From Polynucleobacter sp. AM-25C3 (GTDB lineage: Bacteria; Pseudomonadota; Gammaproteobacteria; Burkholderiales; Burkholderiaceae): a DNA stretch of 64,000 bases. Both the position numbers and the translations under genes were made by a program. The notes under the pieces are model-generated. The model made no database searches. It was not told the origin of the DNA and was given only the letters and a program-made list of their open reading frames with translations. Numbering within the stretch: the stretch's first letter is position 1; the number at the start of each line of letters is the position of its first letter. Of this stretch, positions 1,339-11,484 are shown one piece after another. The DNA is taken from the NCBI RefSeq assembly GCF_018882335.1, contig NZ_JACVOS010000006.1:1-64000 (forward strand). Direction: 5' to 3'.

Positions 1339-2608
1339 GCAAACCATCTTTAATTGTGTAACCTGCAAATGCATTAGCAATTAGCTTAGCGTCTGTAGTG
1401 TGATAGTAAGTATTTTCTATTTGTGTAGTGCTTGTTCCAGCTATTTCACCAACTGAAGTTGGGACTAATCCACTATTCACTTTTTGCGTTATGTAATAGT
1501 GCCTAAAACTGTATGGAACAATATTACGCTTTTCTAAGTTATCAATTTCTGCTAATTTCATTACCTTATCGAAGTGATAAGCAATTGCACGATTACTAAT
1601 AGCTTTGTCGCCGTTAGGACTAAAAATTATTGTATTGCCAAATTTTTTCTGTAGTTCTTTAGGTTTTGATTTTTGATAAGCTGTGATACGTGGATATTGC
1701 AAATTAAATAGTTCTGCAAAGTAGCCAATATCTTTTTCTACAATTCTGCGTGTCTTATTAACTTTGCTTATTTCAGCTCTAACAGTTAGCTTAACTAAAC
1801 CATAATCTTCATTAGCAACCTTATGCTCAAACTCTTCGTAATCTCTCCATTCCAACTGCGTTTGCTCTCCTCTACGCAATCCAAACATTAAGCTAATTAC
1901 CAAGTAGTAACCAGTTATAGCCTTAACTAAATTTCCAGTTTCATTAATTTTCTGTAATGCTTCTGCAATGTATGTGTCCAATACATTACGTATATCCTTA
2001 ACTTCGTCATCCGTAAAACTATTACGTCTTAAACTTTCATCACCTCCATCAGCACGTTTAAGTTTTGTAAATTCAAACCCATTAATGTTTGTTTGTTGAT
2101 GCTTATAAAGCCACTTCATCATTGCATTAATAGTGCTTTGTTCATTTTCTACAGTTGTGTGACTTATTGATTGTTTCTTTCCTATTCCTGCTTGTCTTGC
2201 ACTAAAGTAATCTTCACAAGCATTAATACCTAACTCTTTTAACTTAGTATCTCGCTTAATATAATTAAGCCAATGCTCTAAGTGCGTCTTAATTGTGCTA
2301 AATCTTCCTTTAGTAATGTTTATACCAATATGCTTTTGTCGTTGTTCTAAATACATAGCAACGCCATCTTTAGCTGTCTTACTAAAGTGTGGAACTCCTG
2401 CATATTCTTTAGCTTTATGCTCGTAGTAGTGCTTTTTAACTTCTTCTTTAGCTGTGTTCAAGTTAGTTGTGTTTAAGCTCAAACGCACATACTTACGTTC
2501 TTTAGCTAACCATAACCTATAGTGCCAATACTCTCCACGCTTGTAAATAACAGCGTCTTCAAATACAGCAATCTCTGTTCCGTTAGTCTTAACTTTTTTA
2601 GTTGGCAT
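1325..2608 (-). CDS. Tyrosine recombinase (site-specific integrase)
   Basis: This is a 427-residue phage-type integrase. The N-terminal half (about 1-190) contains arm-binding and core-binding SAM-like regions. The C-terminal catalytic domain shows the first Arg in 'MFGLRRGEQTQLEW' (about residue 245), the HxxR-type box as 'YSFRHYYIT' (about 370) and the nucleophile Tyr in 'ENTYYHTT' (about 403). It would catalyse integration and excision of the element it sits on. The gene starts 160 bases from the 3' end of guaA and reads away from it, the usual placement of an integrase next to its attachment site. AT-rich codons mark it as part of the transferred segment. It appears full length with no frameshift. 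Confidence 0.9.
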   Translation of the reverse strand: MPTKKVKTNGTEIAVFEDAVIYKRGEYWHYRLWLAKERKYVRLSLNTTNLNTAKEEVKKHYYEHKAKEYAGVPHFSKTAKDGVAMYLEQRQKHIGINITKGRFSTIKTHLEHWLNYIKRDTKLKELGINACEDYFSARQAGIGKKQSISHTTVENEQSTINAMMKWLYKHQQTNINGFEFTKLKRADGGDESLRRNSFTDDEVKDIRNVLDTYIAEALQKINETGNLVKAITGYYLVISLMFGLRRGEQTQLEWRDYEEFEHKVANEDYGLVKLTVRAEISKVNKTRRIVEKDIGYFAELFNLQYPRITAYQKSKPKELQKKFGNTIIFSPNGDKAISNRAIAYHFDKVMKLAEIDNLEKRNIVPYSFRHYYITQKVNSGLVPTSVGEIAGTSTTQIENTYYHTTDAKLIANAFAGYTIKDGLLIPT

Positions 2609-2647
2609 TTAATTTATGTTTAGCTGTCTATTTTCATAGCTACAAAG

Positions 2648-2730
2648 TTGTGTAACTATTTCAACAACTGTAAATTAAATTGCTAAGGAATACAACGACT
2701 TATTGTTTTGTGTGAAACTTTTGTGTAACT
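2648..2730. repeat. Direct repeats TTGTGTAACT, candidate integrase arm sites
   Basis: The 10-mer TTGTGTAACT occurs at 2648-2657 and 2721-2730, with a near copy TTGTGTGAAACT at about 2708-2719. All lie between the integrase start and guaA. Short directed repeats beside an attachment site are expected for arm-type binding sites of tyrosine recombinases. Repeat presence is seen directly; the role is inferred. Confidence 0.45.
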
Positions 2731-2759
2731 CGTAAATCCATATAAATCAAGGACTTACA

Positions 2760-2800
2760 AGCGTGTTTTCACTCCCACTCAATAGTTGCCGGAGGTTTTC
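2760..2800. other. Putative attachment site at the 3' end of guaA
   Basis: The mobile segment abuts the last codons of guaA (the conserved [10 protein letters not shown]-terminus). The 3' end of guaA is a well-known target of integrases of genomic islands and integrative elements. The reading frame and stop are intact, as expected when the element carries a copy of the gene end. I see no second copy of this sequence in 1-2760, so the distal junction should lie to the left of the window. Confidence 0.6.
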
Positions 2801-4376
2801 CGCTGATGTCATAGACCACGCGATTGATACCGCGCACTTCATTAATGATGCGATTCGATACCTTGCCGAGTAATTCATGTGGCAAATGGGCCCAGTGCGC
2901 AGTCATAAAATCCTGCGTTTGAACCGCTCTCAAGGCGACAACATATTCATAGGTCCTACCATCGCCCATCACACCAACAGACTTGACTGGCAAGAATACG
3001 GCAAAGGCCTGGCTAGTGAGGTCATACCAAGATTTTTGACTGGCTTCATCAATCGTGTTGCGTAGCTCTTCAATGAAGATGGCATCAGCACGTTGTAAAA
3101 GACTAGCGAATTCGGCTTTAACCTCACCCAAGATGCGAACACCAAGACCGGGTCCTGGGAACGGATGGCGATATACCATCTCACGTGGTAACCCCAAGGC
3201 AACGCCAAGTTCACGCACTTCATCTTTAAACAGCTCACGCAAGGGCTCAAGTAGCTTGAGATGCATATCTTCAGGCAAACCACCCACGTTATGGTGACTC
3301 TTAATCGTATGCGCGCCCTTTTTACCTTTACCAGCAGACTCGATTACGTCTGGATAAATAGTGCCCTGAGCAAGCCACTTGGCATTCTCAATCTTGCCTG
3401 ACTCAGTCTGGAAAATCTCAACGAATTCTTTACCAATAATTTTGCGTTTGGCTTCTGGATCAGCAACTCCTGCTAGCTCAGACATAAACTTTTGAGCAGC
3501 ATCCACACGAATGACTTTGACACCCAGGTTGCGTGCAAACATTTCCATCACCATGTCGCCTTCGTTCAAACGAAGTAAACCATGATCCACAAAAACGCAG
3601 GTAAGTTGATCGCCAATCGCACGATGAATTAATGCTGCGGCAACACTAGAGTCAACGCCACCCGATAAACCAAGGATGACCTCTTCATCGCCGACTAGCT
3701 TGCGAATATTTTCGACAGCCTCACTAATGTAATCACCCATGACCCAGTCTGGTTTGCAAGCGCAGATCTCGTGCACAAAGCGGCCTATGATGGCCTCGCC
3801 TTGTATGGTGTGGGTTACTTCAGGATGGAACTGAAATGCATAGAACTGACGCTCTTCATCAGCCATACCCGCAATCGGGCAAGACTCCGTTGAAGCCATC
3901 ATCTTGAAGGATGGTGGCAGTGTTGTTACTGAATCGCCATGACTCATCCATACTTTCAGAATGCCATGGCCTTCGCTAGTGGAGAAGTCCTGAATGCCTT
4001 TAAGCAAATTAGTATGGCCATGGGCACGCACTTCTGAATAACCAAACTCACGGGCTTTACCCAAGGATTCAGCAGAAGCAACGGCGCCACCCAATTGGGT
4101 TGCCATGGTTTGCATGCCATAGCAAATACCAAGAACAGGAACACCTAATTCAAAAACGATTTGAGGTGCACGAGGACTACCTTCTTCCGTTACAGAGCTT
4201 GGCCCACCAGAAAGAATGATTCCTTTGCCACCCTGCTCTTGAATAAATTTACGAATAAATTCTGGATCGCAATCGTAAGAATGGATTTCAGAATAGACGC
4301 GAGCATCACGCACGCGCCTAGCAATCAATTGGGTGACTTGGGAACCAAAGTCGAGAATCAGTATTTTGTCGTGCAC
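2769..4376 (-). CDS. guaA: GMP synthase (glutamine-hydrolysing)
   Basis: GuaA amidates XMP to GMP using glutamine and ATP, the last step of guanine nucleotide synthesis. The 535-residue length is normal. An N-terminal class I glutamine amidotransferase domain (1-200) has the nucleophile Cys85 in GICYGMQ and the His/Glu pair in FHPEVTH. The ATP pyrophosphatase domain has the P-loop GLSGGVDSS (about 240). The C-terminal dimerisation domain ends in PPATIEWE. The start is GTG at 4376, giving the [13 protein letters not shown] start usual for the family. It lies 49 bases downstream of guaB and is probably co-transcribed with it. Its native downstream terminator has been displaced by the integrated element. 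Confidence 0.97.
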
Positions 4377-7329: not shown

Positions 7330-8742
7330 ATGAAATTGCCTTTTGACGAAATGCTCGACGCCAGCGGAAAAGCGCGTCCCCATTACCAAGTTTTTCATAA
7401 CTGGCTTAAGCAGCAGAGTGACACCCTCATGGGTCTCAAACGCGCTGAAGCTGACCTCATCTTCCGACGAGTCGGCATTACCTTCGCCGTCTATGGGGAT
7501 GACCTCGGATCCGAGAGAACCATTCCATTCGATCAAGTGCCCCGAATCTTTACCGCCAAAGAATGGGAGCAGCTAGAAGCTGGATTGCGTCAACGGGTTA
7601 AAGCACTCAATCGCTTTCTCTATGACGTCTATCACGAAGAAGAAATTATCAAAGCGGGAATTATCCCTGCCGAGCAAATCTATAACAACGCGCAATACCG
7701 CCCTGAGATGCGCAATGTCAATGTGCCACGAGACATCTACGCTCAAATAGCCGGTATTGATATTGTGCGTGCTGGTGAAGGCGAGTTCTACGTCTTAGAA
7801 GATAACTTGCGCGTACCCTCTGGCGTCTCTTATATGGTTGAAGACCGCAAGATGATGATGCGCCTCTTCCCCGACCTTTTCCAAAAATATCGCGTTGCCC
7901 CAGTTGAGCACTATCCCGATTTTCTGCTGGAGTGCTTGAAGTCAGTTAAACCTGATGATGTTAAAAAACCGAATGTCGTCGTGTTAACCCCGGGCATGTA
8001 CAACTCAGCTTATTTTGAGCACAGCTATCTCGCACAACAAATGGGTGTGGAGTTGGTAGAAGGCAAAGATTTGTTTGTGAAGAACGAGCAAGTATTTATG
8101 CGCACGACTCAAGGGCCTGAACGTGTTGATGTGATTTATCGCCGCGTAGATGATGACTTCTTAGATCCCCTCGCCTTCCGCTCTGATTCAACATTAGGAG
8201 TTGCTGGATTACTCGCTGCACATCGCGCTGGTAACGTCACTTTGGCCAATGCGATTGGTACCGGCATTGCGGATGACAAATCCATCTACCCGTACGTTCC
8301 AGACATGATCGAGTTCTATCTCGGTGAGAAACCCATTCTGAATAACGTACCGACCTACCAGTGCCGCAAGCCGGATGATCTCGCTTACACCTTAGCGAAC
8401 TTAGACAAGCTCGTTGTGAAGTTGACGCATGGTGCCGGTGGCTATGGCATGCTGGTCGGTCCAGCAGCCAGCAAGGCAGAGATTGAGGAATTCCGCGGGC
8501 ATCTGATTGCCAATCCGGATAAATATATTGCCCAACCAACGCTCGCGCTTTCCACCTGCCCAACTTTTGTTGAGTCCGGTGTTGCGCCACGCCATATTGA
8601 TTTGCGTCCTTTTGTGCTCTCAGGCAAGACGATCAAGATGGTTCCAGGTGGACTCACCCGCGTTGCTCTTAAAGAAGGCTCTTTAGTAGTGAACTCCTCT
8701 CAAGGTGGCGGCACTAAAGACACTTGGGTGCTAGAAGAATAA
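7330..8742 (+). CDS. Circularly permuted ATP-grasp type 2 protein
   Basis: This 470-residue protein matches the CP_ATPgrasp_2 (former DUF404/DUF407) family. Conserved segments are YGDDLGSERTIPFDQVPR near the start, 'VLEDNLRVPSGVSYMVEDRK' (about 155-175), 'VKLTHGAGGYGMLVG' (the glycine-rich ATP-binding loop, about 363-377) and 'PRHIDLRPFVLSG'. The family is predicted to form an amide or peptide bond with ATP, but no substrate is established. It is the first gene of a four-gene operon with alpha-E, transglutaminase and Anbu proteins. The ATG has no strong ribosome binding site. The length is normal for the family. Confidence 0.92.
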   Translation: MKLPFDEMLDASGKARPHYQVFHNWLKQQSDTLMGLKRAEADLIFRRVGITFAVYGDDLGSERTIPFDQVPRIFTAKEWEQLEAGLRQRVKALNRFLYDVYHEEEIIKAGIIPAEQIYNNAQYRPEMRNVNVPRDIYAQIAGIDIVRAGEGEFYVLEDNLRVPSGVSYMVEDRKMMMRLFPDLFQKYRVAPVEHYPDFLLECLKSVKPDDVKKPNVVVLTPGMYNSAYFEHSYLAQQMGVELVEGKDLFVKNEQVFMRTTQGPERVDVIYRRVDDDFLDPLAFRSDSTLGVAGLLAAHRAGNVTLANAIGTGIADDKSIYPYVPDMIEFYLGEKPILNNVPTYQCRKPDDLAYTLANLDKLVVKLTHGAGGYGMLVGPAASKAEIEEFRGHLIANPDKYIAQPTLALSTCPTFVESGVAPRHIDLRPFVLSGKTIKMVPGGLTRVALKEGSLVVNSSQGGGTKDTWVLEE

Positions 8743-8756
8743 AGGGATAAGTAAAT

Positions 8757-9737
8757 ATGTTGAGCCGTACCGCCGATTGCCTGTACTGGATGGCCCGCTA
8801 CACAGAGCGTGCAGAAAATACTGCCCGCATGCTGGACGTCAATCATCAGACCTCCCTATTACCTCAGCCCGCAGAATTTCTGGAGCAGAGTTGGAAGAAG
8901 TTGCTCACGATCTCCAAGCTAGAAGAATCCTTCCTAGAGAAATACGATGTAGTCACTCGTGAAAATGTTTTGGATTTCATGATTTATGAAACCAGCAATC
9001 CGTCCAGCATTGTGTCCTGCTTATTTGCTGCCCGTGAAAATGCACGTGTCATTCGTGGAAGAATTACCTCGGAAGCATGGGAAACCCAAAATACGACTTG
9101 GCTAGAATTACAGCGCATTCTCGAAGCGAGAAATCAAGCAGACCCGAGCCGACTACTGGAGTGGGTAAAACATCGCTGTCATTTGTTCAGGGGCGTAATG
9201 CACGGCACCATGCTCAAGAATGAAGCTTTTTACTTCATGAATGTGGGCACACTTTTAGAGCGGGCCGATAACACTGCTCGTATTTTAGAAACAAAGTATG
9301 AAGACCAAGCAACTCTGAAAGTATTGCGCACAGATAAAAAAGTTGAAGCCGATGGTGCAGACGGCGATTTCTTTGACTTCTACCATTGGGCCGCCCTACT
9401 TCGCTCAGTATCTGCTTTTGAAATCTATCGCCAAATCTACTCTGACCAGGTTACTCCAAAGCAAGTGGCACAACTCTTGATTTTTAATAAGCAAATGCCT
9501 CGCTCCCTGGTTAGTTGCGTGAATGAACTGATTCCATTGATTTCAGAAGTGAAGAATCAACAATCCAAGGAAATCGAACGACTACTTGGAAAGCTCAAAG
9601 CAAACTTAGATTACTCAGACATTGATGAGGTTTTCTCTCAAGGCCTGGAAGAGTTCATTGAAGAATTTTTAGAGCGCATTAATCACATTGCTGATGAATT
9701 CAGTAATGCCTACCTTATTCCATTGGCAGTAGCCTAA
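8757..9737 (+). CDS. Alpha-E domain protein (DUF403)
   Basis: This 326-residue, all-helical protein starts MLSRTADCLYWMARYTERAE, the hallmark of the alpha-E family, and contains 'FYFMNVGTLLERADNTARIL' near the middle. Glu-rich helices (ARYTERAEN, LERADNTARI) give the family its name. Function is unknown; it nearly always accompanies the circularly permuted ATP-grasp protein and a transglutaminase-like protease and is thought to work with them. An AAAGGGATAAG ribosome binding region precedes ATG. It follows the ATP-grasp gene by 14 bases. Confidence 0.92.
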   Translation: MLSRTADCLYWMARYTERAENTARMLDVNHQTSLLPQPAEFLEQSWKKLLTISKLEESFLEKYDVVTRENVLDFMIYETSNPSSIVSCLFAARENARVIRGRITSEAWETQNTTWLELQRILEARNQADPSRLLEWVKHRCHLFRGVMHGTMLKNEAFYFMNVGTLLERADNTARILETKYEDQATLKVLRTDKKVEADGADGDFFDFYHWAALLRSVSAFEIYRQIYSDQVTPKQVAQLLIFNKQMPRSLVSCVNELIPLISEVKNQQSKEIERLLGKLKANLDYSDIDEVFSQGLEEFIEEFLERINHIADEFSNAYLIPLAVA

Positions 9738-9745
9738 AGATCGCC

Positions 9746-10543
9746 ATGCACCTCAAGATTCGTCACCGTACAGAATATCGCTATGAAACGCCAGTACGTT
9801 ACTCTATTCAAGAGTTGCGCCTCACACCATCTGATGTAGCCGGTCAAACAATTGATAAATGGAAAGTGAGCACCCCCATCAAGGCAAGCACCTCTTATGA
9901 TGCCTTCGGAAATCTCTGTAGCGTTTTTGCACAAGAAACCTCCTATACCTCGATGATGATTGAGGCTGAAGGTGAAGTCCATACGCAAGATGCCTATGAA
10001 TTTATCGATGCGCCTAAAGCGGTGTCTCCCTACCACCTGCTACAACAAACGAATTTGACGGAACCCACACCAGAAATGCTGGAATTTTTCTCTGAATCTC
10101 TGCCCAAGAAAAACTCTGTCGATGAAGTCATGGCATTAGCTGCAGCAGTGCAAAGCGCCATCCTGTACTTCCCCGGACAGACCAACTTTGCCACCACTGC
10201 AGCCCAGTCTTTTGCCATGAAATCCGGCGTCTGCCAAGATCATGCACACATCATGCTCGGCTTGTGTCGCGCCTCAGGTATTCCGGTACGTTACGTTAGT
10301 GGTTATTTCTTCGCTGAAGACTCGCCAAACTTAGCCAGCCATGCCTGGATTGATTTCTGCGCTGACATTGATAAAAAGCTCTGGCTTAGCGTCGACATCA
10401 CCAACGCCTGCTTTACGGATGCTCGGCATATTCGCCTCGCTATTGGTAGAGATTATTACTCAGCAGCCCCCGTTAAAGGCGTCCGCTCAGGCGGCGGAGG
10501 TGAAGAACTGAGCGCTAATATATCCATCACCCAACTGAACTAA
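9746..10543 (+). CDS. Transglutaminase-like cysteine peptidase family protein
   Basis: This 265-residue cytoplasmic protein has an N-terminal beta-rich domain (Bact_transglu_N, about 1-85, beginning HLKIRHRTEYRYETPVRYS) and a C-terminal transglutaminase core. The catalytic triad is visible as Cys163 in KSGVCQDHAHIM, His199 in NLASHAWIDF and an Asp in SVDITN (about 217). Bacterial members usually hydrolyse amide bonds rather than cross-link proteins. No signal peptide is present. The gene starts 8 bases after the alpha-E gene and fits the operon with ATP-grasp and Anbu, where a ligase and two proteases occur together. Confidence 0.92.
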   Translation: MHLKIRHRTEYRYETPVRYSIQELRLTPSDVAGQTIDKWKVSTPIKASTSYDAFGNLCSVFAQETSYTSMMIEAEGEVHTQDAYEFIDAPKAVSPYHLLQQTNLTEPTPEMLEFFSESLPKKNSVDEVMALAAAVQSAILYFPGQTNFATTAAQSFAMKSGVCQDHAHIMLGLCRASGIPVRYVSGYFFAEDSPNLASHAWIDFCADIDKKLWLSVDITNACFTDARHIRLAIGRDYYSAAPVKGVRSGGGGEELSANISITQLN

Positions 10544-10602: not shown

Positions 10603-11484
10603 ATGACGTATTGCGTTGGGCTTTGCCTAAAAGATGGTTTAGTTTTTTTATCAGACACACGCACCAATGCGGGCGTAGATCAAATTGGCACCTTTAGAAA
10701 GATGTCTTTATTTCAAAAAGATAAAGATCGTTTTTTTACCTTAATGAGTGCCGGCAATCTTGCTATTACTCAAGCCGTTAAAGAAATCCTATTACAGGGC
10801 CAACTCCTCAACGGAAAGAATCTGTGGAATGTGGAAAGCACCCATGATGCAGCCGTAGTTATTGGAGACGCCATTAAACAGGTTTATGACAGAGATCACA
10901 AGGCACTAGAAAAAGCAGGGATTGATTTCAATTGCAACCTGATCTTTGGCGGTCAAGTGAAGGGCGAACGCCCAAGGCTCTTTAATATTTATTCAGCCGG
11001 CAACTTTATTGAAGCTACACCAGAAACTTGTTATTTCCAAATAGGTGAATCCAAATATGGAAAGCCGATCTTAGATAGGGTGATTAGCTTTGATACCCCC
11101 CTCAATTTGGCAACGAAGTGCGCATTGATTTCAATGGACTCCACTCTGAATAGCAATATTTCTGTTGGCCTACCACTAGATTTACTCGTCTACGAAAAGA
11201 ACTCTTTGCAAGCCAGCAAACTAGTCACCATGGATGAATCCAATCCCTACTTTCAGATGATTCATCAACTCTGGGGCGAAAAATTACGTGCTGCGTTTAA
11301 CTCAATTGCGGAGCCAAGCTGGTCAGGAGAAACACCATCCAAATCTATTACCTCCCCCGCCAAGAAGATGGGTGCTGTGCCGATTTATCGCGCCAGCAAA
11401 GCAGTGAAGAAGGTGGCTACACCCACCAAAACTGTAAGCAAAACGATCCCAAAGAAAAAGGTAACTTTAAAGGCTAAGCGCTAA
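10603..11484 (+). CDS. Anbu, proteasome-like peptidase, with Lys-rich tail
   Basis: Anbu is the 'ancestral beta subunit' of the proteasome/HslV Ntn-hydrolase family. The protein starts MTYCVGLCLKDGLVFLSDTR, and the expected catalytic set is visible: Thr2 (Thr1 after Met removal), Asp18 and Lys33 in GTFRKM. The core ends near residue 243, the usual family length. Residues 244-293 add about 50 residues with roughly 13 Lys, plus Ala, Thr and Pro (for example SKTIPKKKVTLKAKR). I do not associate such a tail with the family; it resembles a nucleic-acid- or polyanion-binding extension. ATG is preceded by AAAGGGG. It is the last gene of the operon and a strong terminator follows. Confidence 0.92.
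   Translation: MTYCVGLCLKDGLVFLSDTRTNAGVDQIGTFRKMSLFQKDKDRFFTLMSAGNLAITQAVKEILLQGQLLNGKNLWNVESTHDAAVVIGDAIKQVYDRDHKALEKAGIDFNCNLIFGGQVKGERPRLFNIYSAGNFIEATPETCYFQIGESKYGKPILDRVISFDTPLNLATKCALISMDSTLNSNISVGLPLDLLVYEKNSLQASKLVTMDESNPYFQMIHQLWGEKLRAAFNSIAEPSWSGETPSKSITSPAKKMGAVPIYRASKAVKKVATPTKTVSKTIPKKKVTLKAKR

Follow-up and report, generated by a model that had tools for sequence, protein, structure and literature searches.

Anbu is a proteasome-like Ntn hydrolase whose function, substrates and partners were stated as not known in reports from 2017 to 2021 (PMC5666114, PMC6376114, PMC8665760). Its catalytic residues are given as Thr1, Asp17 and Lys32(33), and the YbAnbu particle is described as a split ring of 12-14 subunits (PMC6376114). 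A role in dimer formation has been assigned to the long C-terminal helix (PMC5666114), and the C-termini are reported generally to point away from the ring (PMC8665760). The Anbu proteins of Pseudomonas, Yersinia and Hyphomicrobium (5lox, 5nyw, 5nyj) have the fold, the catalytic positions T2, D18 and K33, the four-gene cluster and the long C-terminal helix in common with the Anbu of Polynucleobacter sp. AM-25C3 that we describe here. The solved chains differ from it, however, in that they are 240-251 aa long, match it only up to residue 240 and have neither its appendix nor its lysine-rich tail. We found no account of this tail among the matches listed from the open-access literature, and PMC8665760 mentions neither 'Polynucleobacter' nor 'lysine'.

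The gene lies in a window of 64,000 nucleotides, the whole stretch of DNA that was analysed (Table 1). Among named records the closest by protein, at 99% over the core, belongs to a Polynucleobacter, as do other close ones, which places the window in this genus. Residues 1-240 correspond to solved Anbu chains, five of which were matched by phmmer (best 5loy, E 8e-84) with alignments that stop at query residues 233-240; residues 241-293 have no counterpart in these five chains. The top Foldseek matches of the AlphaFold monomer model, which contains the C-terminal helix, are likewise Anbu structures (5nyw, E 6e-30, 52% identity). The general Pfam Proteasome model scores 22.0, slightly below its cut-off of 22.4, and NCBIfam has no family for any of the four cluster proteins. 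The catalytic positions T2, D18 and K33 are invariant across 76 aligned Anbu sequences. The ATP-grasp, alpha-E and transglutaminase genes are all present at 90 of 100 genus loci (L031-L130). At eight Polynucleobacter loci (L117-L123 and L128), ATP-grasp, alpha-E and Anbu occur with no transglutaminase match in the stretch examined, and Anbu is untailed in all eight; at L117 (e.g. 2001-3688) alpha-E directly adjoins Anbu. In one genome, G126, a second Anbu cluster lies about 22 kb from the first (L103, L104), and the lysine tails of the two differ by one residue.

Table 1. Features of the Anbu cluster and of the Anbu C-terminus, in positions of the window
Feature	Positions	Strand	Basis or remark
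Circularly permuted ATP-grasp protein, Anbu cluster	7330..8742	+	Pfam PF14403, E 1.7e-167
Alpha-E protein, Anbu cluster	8757..9737	+	Pfam PF04168, E 7.1e-99
Transglutaminase-like protein, Anbu cluster	9746..10543	+	Pfam PF01841, E 3.9e-17; PF08379, E 1.1e-19
Anbu gene, proteasome-like Ntn hydrolase, 293 aa	10603..11484	+	last in the ATP-grasp / alpha-E / transglutaminase / Anbu cluster
C-terminal helix, residues 215-233, counterpart of the dimer helix in solved Anbu	11245..11301	+	AlphaFold helix
Proximal appendix, residues 239-261 (SWSG...PAKKMGAVPI)	11317..11385	+	conserved, dN/dS 0.059, pLDDT ~79 (241-260)
Distal lysine-rich H1-like tail, residues 262-293	11386..11481	+	composition, charge conservation, pLDDT <50 from residue 275

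The original prediction, made from the DNA sequence, was that this Anbu carries a lysine-rich extension of about 50 residues, and this is what the intact ORF (10603-11484, single frame) encodes: residues 244-293 contain 13 Lys and no Asp or Glu. The 55 residues from 239 on comprise the same 13 Lys, 2 Arg and a single acidic residue. The tail contributes a net charge of +14 to a core of -2, giving a subunit of +12, and the same median values for core (-2) and tail (+14) are obtained over 102 full-length tailed proteins. Gene fusion, a frameshift or a stop-codon error as the origin of the extension can be ruled out, because it belongs to a single ORF and a like tail is found at 103 of 130 genus loci. 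The tail consists of two layers, a conserved appendix (239-261) followed by the lysine-rich end (262-293). In the AlphaFold model, block-mean pLDDT over residues 241-270 is 79, 79 and 76; it falls below 50 at residues 275-293, as it also does at core residues 22-27, and the last 19 residues (275-293) are accordingly predicted to be intrinsically disordered. In a second model, of a Comamonadaceae Anbu (L239), the tail has block means of 69-76.

Anbu was matched in 142 of the 186 Polynucleobacter genomes, leaving 44 with no match; the 130 loci that we examined come from 129 of the matched genomes. A lysine-rich tail is present at 103 loci, that is in 102 genomes, one of which (G126) has two copies. 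In the other genomes the tail is short and near neutral or acidic (14), absent (10) or frameshifted (one, L102), and two genomes have gene fragments only. Poor conservation of the composition among relatives had been named as grounds against the original prediction; in 102 of the 129 genomes the tail is lysine-rich. Counted from residue 239, the lysine tails are 36-73 aa long, contain 7-16 Lys and have net charges of +8 to +18. All 103 contain a PAKKMGAVPI-like piece, detected with a loose pattern that was written after seeing the tails, and we used it to divide each tail into a proximal (239-261 here) and a distal part. The distal parts are 13-50 aa long (median 32 over the 103 tails) and are composed of 30.5% Lys, 15% Ala, 9% Pro and only 0.7% Asp+Glu (3115 residues; 103 tails, 101 distinct). 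Two strains inside the tailed clade have lost the tail: L102 by a frameshift near residue 237, and L088 by a stop in place of Trp240, past which in-frame lysine-rich sequence persists. Anbu genes are broken at two more genus loci (L124, L125). Considering these losses and broken genes together with the 44 genomes without an Anbu match, the tail is dispensable in evolution.

These two losses, as well as the variable distal sequence, might be taken to mean that the tail is a product of low-complexity drift without function. The substitution pattern makes this extremely improbable. Over 25 disjoint pairs, compared with equal part lengths, dN/dS rose from 0.017 in the core through 0.059 in the proximal tail to 0.289 in the distal tail. 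Within the distal part, 4.8% of the Lys cells changed, compared with 26% for Arg, 34% for Ala, 40% for Val and 47% for Thr. We counted 21 changes altering Lys or Arg, where synonymous divergence at four-fold sites leads one to expect 162 (lowest of 300 simulations, 134), and 6 involving Asp or Glu, where 40 are expected (lowest of 300, 24). Even among the lysine changes themselves, the K-R exchange was the commonest (13 of 23). Because Lys changes so much less often than Ala, Val and Thr, and basic positions so much less often than expected, we conclude that the charge is under selection and the spacers are freer. Conservation of basic positions this far beyond neutral expectation rules out neutral drift.

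As to the origin of the tail, a FastTree phylogeny of 190 cores requires three changes of the lysine-tail label, which on this tree correspond to a single gain followed by two losses; the branch holding the tailed clade has a support of 79. In an IQ-TREE phylogeny of 57 rows, with the two loss rows left out, one change suffices, and the split between tailed and short-tailed members of the genus is supported at 97. A single gain in Polynucleobacter is thus the fewest-changes reading, with the reservation that the tailed clade's own branch has an IQ-TREE support of only 28. The untailed Anbu of one genus genome (L126, G066) falls among distant families in the FastTree phylogeny (long branch, support 35) and was possibly acquired from outside the genus.

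Comparison with other Burkholderiales changes the view of what is unusual about this protein. We collected 118 non-genus loci (30 taken from selected genomes of the family, 26 best order hits and 62 best named hits), a sample biased to near relatives. A tail of 23-109 aa is present at 107 of them, and the remaining 11 have at most 13 aa. The initial assumption that Anbu ends near residue 245 therefore holds for the crystallised proteins and for these 11 loci, but not for the other 107, and possession of a tail is ruled out as the unusual trait. It is the lysine-rich distal half (262-293) that stands out: none of the 118 loci has 7 Lys in its tail, the whole tail having at most 6, and among the loci examined such an end was seen only in Polynucleobacter. 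The proximal part aligns in places with the other Burkholderiales tails, which suggests shared descent. The Anbu proteins of Ralstonia, Comamonadaceae (e.g. Rhodoferax), Undibacterium and Noviherbaspirillum have a like appendix around the conserved Trp240 and, by eye, a similar second hydrophobic patch; they differ in that the distal end is not lysine-rich and is instead of the EKLI or QTLAQ type. At Comamonadaceae-type loci (L228-L288) the appendix is conserved, measures about 32 aa and closes with an EKLI-type C-terminus, and a Q-T-L-A-Q-type motif recurs near the Anbu C-terminus at L158, L160, L163, L185, L252, L268 and others. A transglutaminase match is absent at 57 of the 62 named non-genus loci, and at L228, L239 and L246 none of the three cluster proteins is matched.

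Among unique non-genus tails, 54 of 114 finish with [EDQN][KR][LIV][IV] (maximum in shuffles, 2) and 36 of 114 contain Q-x-hydrophobic-A (shuffles, mean 5.5, maximum 13); among the 103 lysine tails the numbers are 0 and 1. Both patterns were drawn up once the tails had been inspected, and their counts are inflated by shared descent. It is tentatively possible that the Burkholderiales tail is a modular address, in which a conserved appendix is combined with a lineage-swapped end (EKLI, QTLAQ or lysine) that would decide the place or the partner of the peptidase. A related reading, in which the tail is a partner-specific contact and its distal end a swappable address recognised in every lineage by another partner, draws on these motif counts with their caveats. 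We find it unlikely, as the lysine tails conserve charge rather than sequence.

The lysines could also serve in chemistry rather than in binding, as acceptors for isopeptide bonds formed by the ATP-grasp or the transglutaminase of the cluster. The cluster does encode two putative amide-bond enzymes, a peptide-synthesis role has been suggested for it (Iyer 2009, as cited in PMC5666114), and the eight genus loci mentioned above have an Anbu that lacks both the tail and a nearby transglutaminase match. Yet 75 of the 107 tailed non-genus loci also have no nearby transglutaminase match (flank lengths vary, and at many loci the entire cluster lies elsewhere), whereas a match is found near 8 of the 11 untailed ones, albeit a weak one (22-24% identity) in 6 of the 8. 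Moreover, the K-R exchange predominates among lysine changes, and co-expression with the cluster is reported, as data not shown, to have given no different Anbu form (PMC5666114). The link between tail and transglutaminase is thus weakened, and we regard the isopeptide role as very unlikely.

Given that Anbu C-termini are reported generally to point away from the ring, the tails would be displayed on the outside, and there would be 12-14 of them per particle if Polynucleobacter Anbu is built like YbAnbu. This outward orientation (PMC8665760) bears on another explanation, namely that electrostatic attraction of acidic or unfolded protein substrates to the tail feeds the peptidase without an ATPase. 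The shift in subunit charge from -2 to +12 would suit such a role, as would the report that Anbu has no known partner ATPase (PMC5666114). Nonetheless, we consider it improbable: besides the direction of the C-termini, YbAnbu is described as having no peptidase or amidase activity (PMC6376114), and no sequence feature indicates substrates.

The predicted likeness to histone H1-type tails is supported by the distal composition, the selection on charge and the disorder predicted for the last 19 residues. To place the tail among other basic C-termini we turned to an even 800-kb sample of the genome of a relative (G044), in which the last 32 residues of Anbu are second in net charge among 885 ORFs of at least 60 aa. 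Only three ORFs of this sample reach 8 Lys and a net charge of +8: Anbu, an HC2-like protein and a protein resembling the GTPase Der. Several other high-charge ORFs look by sequence like ribosomal proteins and a GTPase, and the list also includes ORFs without an evident nucleic-acid role and probable non-genes. One entry of the list (L297:7575-7865, minus strand) is a 96-aa protein made mostly of KAPAKK-type repeats and weakly HC2-like (Pfam E 7.6e-8, below the cut-off).

Of the 103 distal tails, 19 contain the SPKK-type motif [ST]P[KR][KR], compared with 6.2 in shuffles (at most 13), but it is absent from the other 84 and its count is inflated by shared descent; K-x-x-K is rarer than in shuffles (134 vs 244, 103 tails). 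By reading, the tail of the 293-aa protein contains no KPAA, and tandem KPAA-type repeats were not found. The tail nevertheless resembles the KPAA tails of AlgP and PhaF and the bacterial H1/HC2-like proteins in being Lys/Ala/Pro-rich, acid-poor and predicted disordered; unlike them, it is short, lacks tandem KPAA repeats and is fused to a peptidase. PhaM is a precedent of the PAKKA type. A fragment of the KPAA tail of AlgP is reported to bind DNA, and the lysine-rich, disordered basic domain of RNase R to bind both the ribosome and polyphosphate.

Lysine-rich disorder by itself leaves the ligand unfixed, and polyphosphate, one of the ligands proposed initially, deserves attention. Anbu might work with polyphosphate in starvation as Lon does, since lysine-rich regions of YihI and RNase R are reported to bind it, Lon associates with polyphosphate granules in starvation (PMC7566177) and Anbu is up in nitrogen-limited P. 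putida (PMC5666114). PPK2, which may make polyphosphate, has two matches in the genome studied here, and 155 of the 186 Polynucleobacter genomes contain it. PPK1, on the other hand, was found in 53 of the 186, and neither in the genome studied here nor in 91 of the 102 lysine-tailed ones, whereas it is present in 14 of 14 short-tailed and 9 of 10 untailed genomes (23/24 against 11/102 of the 129 examined); this pattern follows phylogeny, and some assemblies are incomplete. The 12 tailed loci in the 11 PPK1 genomes have tails of 37-45 aa, the other tailed loci 36-73 aa (median 55). Published strain reports are consistent with this, PnecA strains SHI2 and SHI8 carrying ppk and ppk2 (PMC10112219) and PnecC strains KF022 and KF023 carrying ppk2, which KF032 lacks (PMC10019162). 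Nor do the tails conform to the PASK motif, a polyacidic, serine- and lysine-rich stretch targeted by polyphosphate (PMC12345225), as Asp+Glu make up only 0.7% of the distal residues. The absence of PPK1 from most tailed genomes thus weakens the case for polyphosphate, even though it might simply reflect phylogeny, and we see only a small chance that polyphosphate is the ligand. As a whole, the first interpretation of the tail is upheld in its H1-like character and loses ground in its polyphosphate part.

DNA or RNA binding by the tail is plausible, and nucleic acid is the ligand we favour on composition and precedent. We would give roughly even odds to the tail placing the peptidase by multivalent anchoring to a polyanion, nucleic acid being the likeliest one. 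The end of an older conserved appendix would have turned once into a disordered, lysine-rich, H1-like tail; with about +14 on each tail, the many tails of a particle would provide avidity for a polyanion, most probably nucleic acid in the form of nucleoid DNA or of RNA or ribosomes. We infer that the split-ring peptidase would thereby be localised near DNA- or RNA-bound, perhaps damaged, proteins, with a corresponding effect on proteolysis. This would parallel Lon, which has been found on DNA and in the nucleoid, and the proposed mode, a protease placed by binding to DNA or polyphosphate, would be common to both (PMC7566177). Lon is an unrelated protein, however, with its site in the ATPase domain, whereas that of Anbu would be a disordered tail (PMC7566177).

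The charge-selected tail offers a removable handle on localisation, as a cut at residue 261 keeps both the core and the appendix, and nature already supplies relatives for comparison whose Anbu has no tail, a short one or a truncated one. In other Burkholderiales, the tails that end in motifs could in turn be used as bait for partners. In most of the freshwater Polynucleobacter genomes examined that encode Anbu, a member of this known enzyme family thus carries an H1-like tail that is specific to the lineage and maintained by selection. If the proposed anchoring is true, Polynucleobacter Anbu would be a proteasome relative set on chromatin or RNA by its own H1-like tail.
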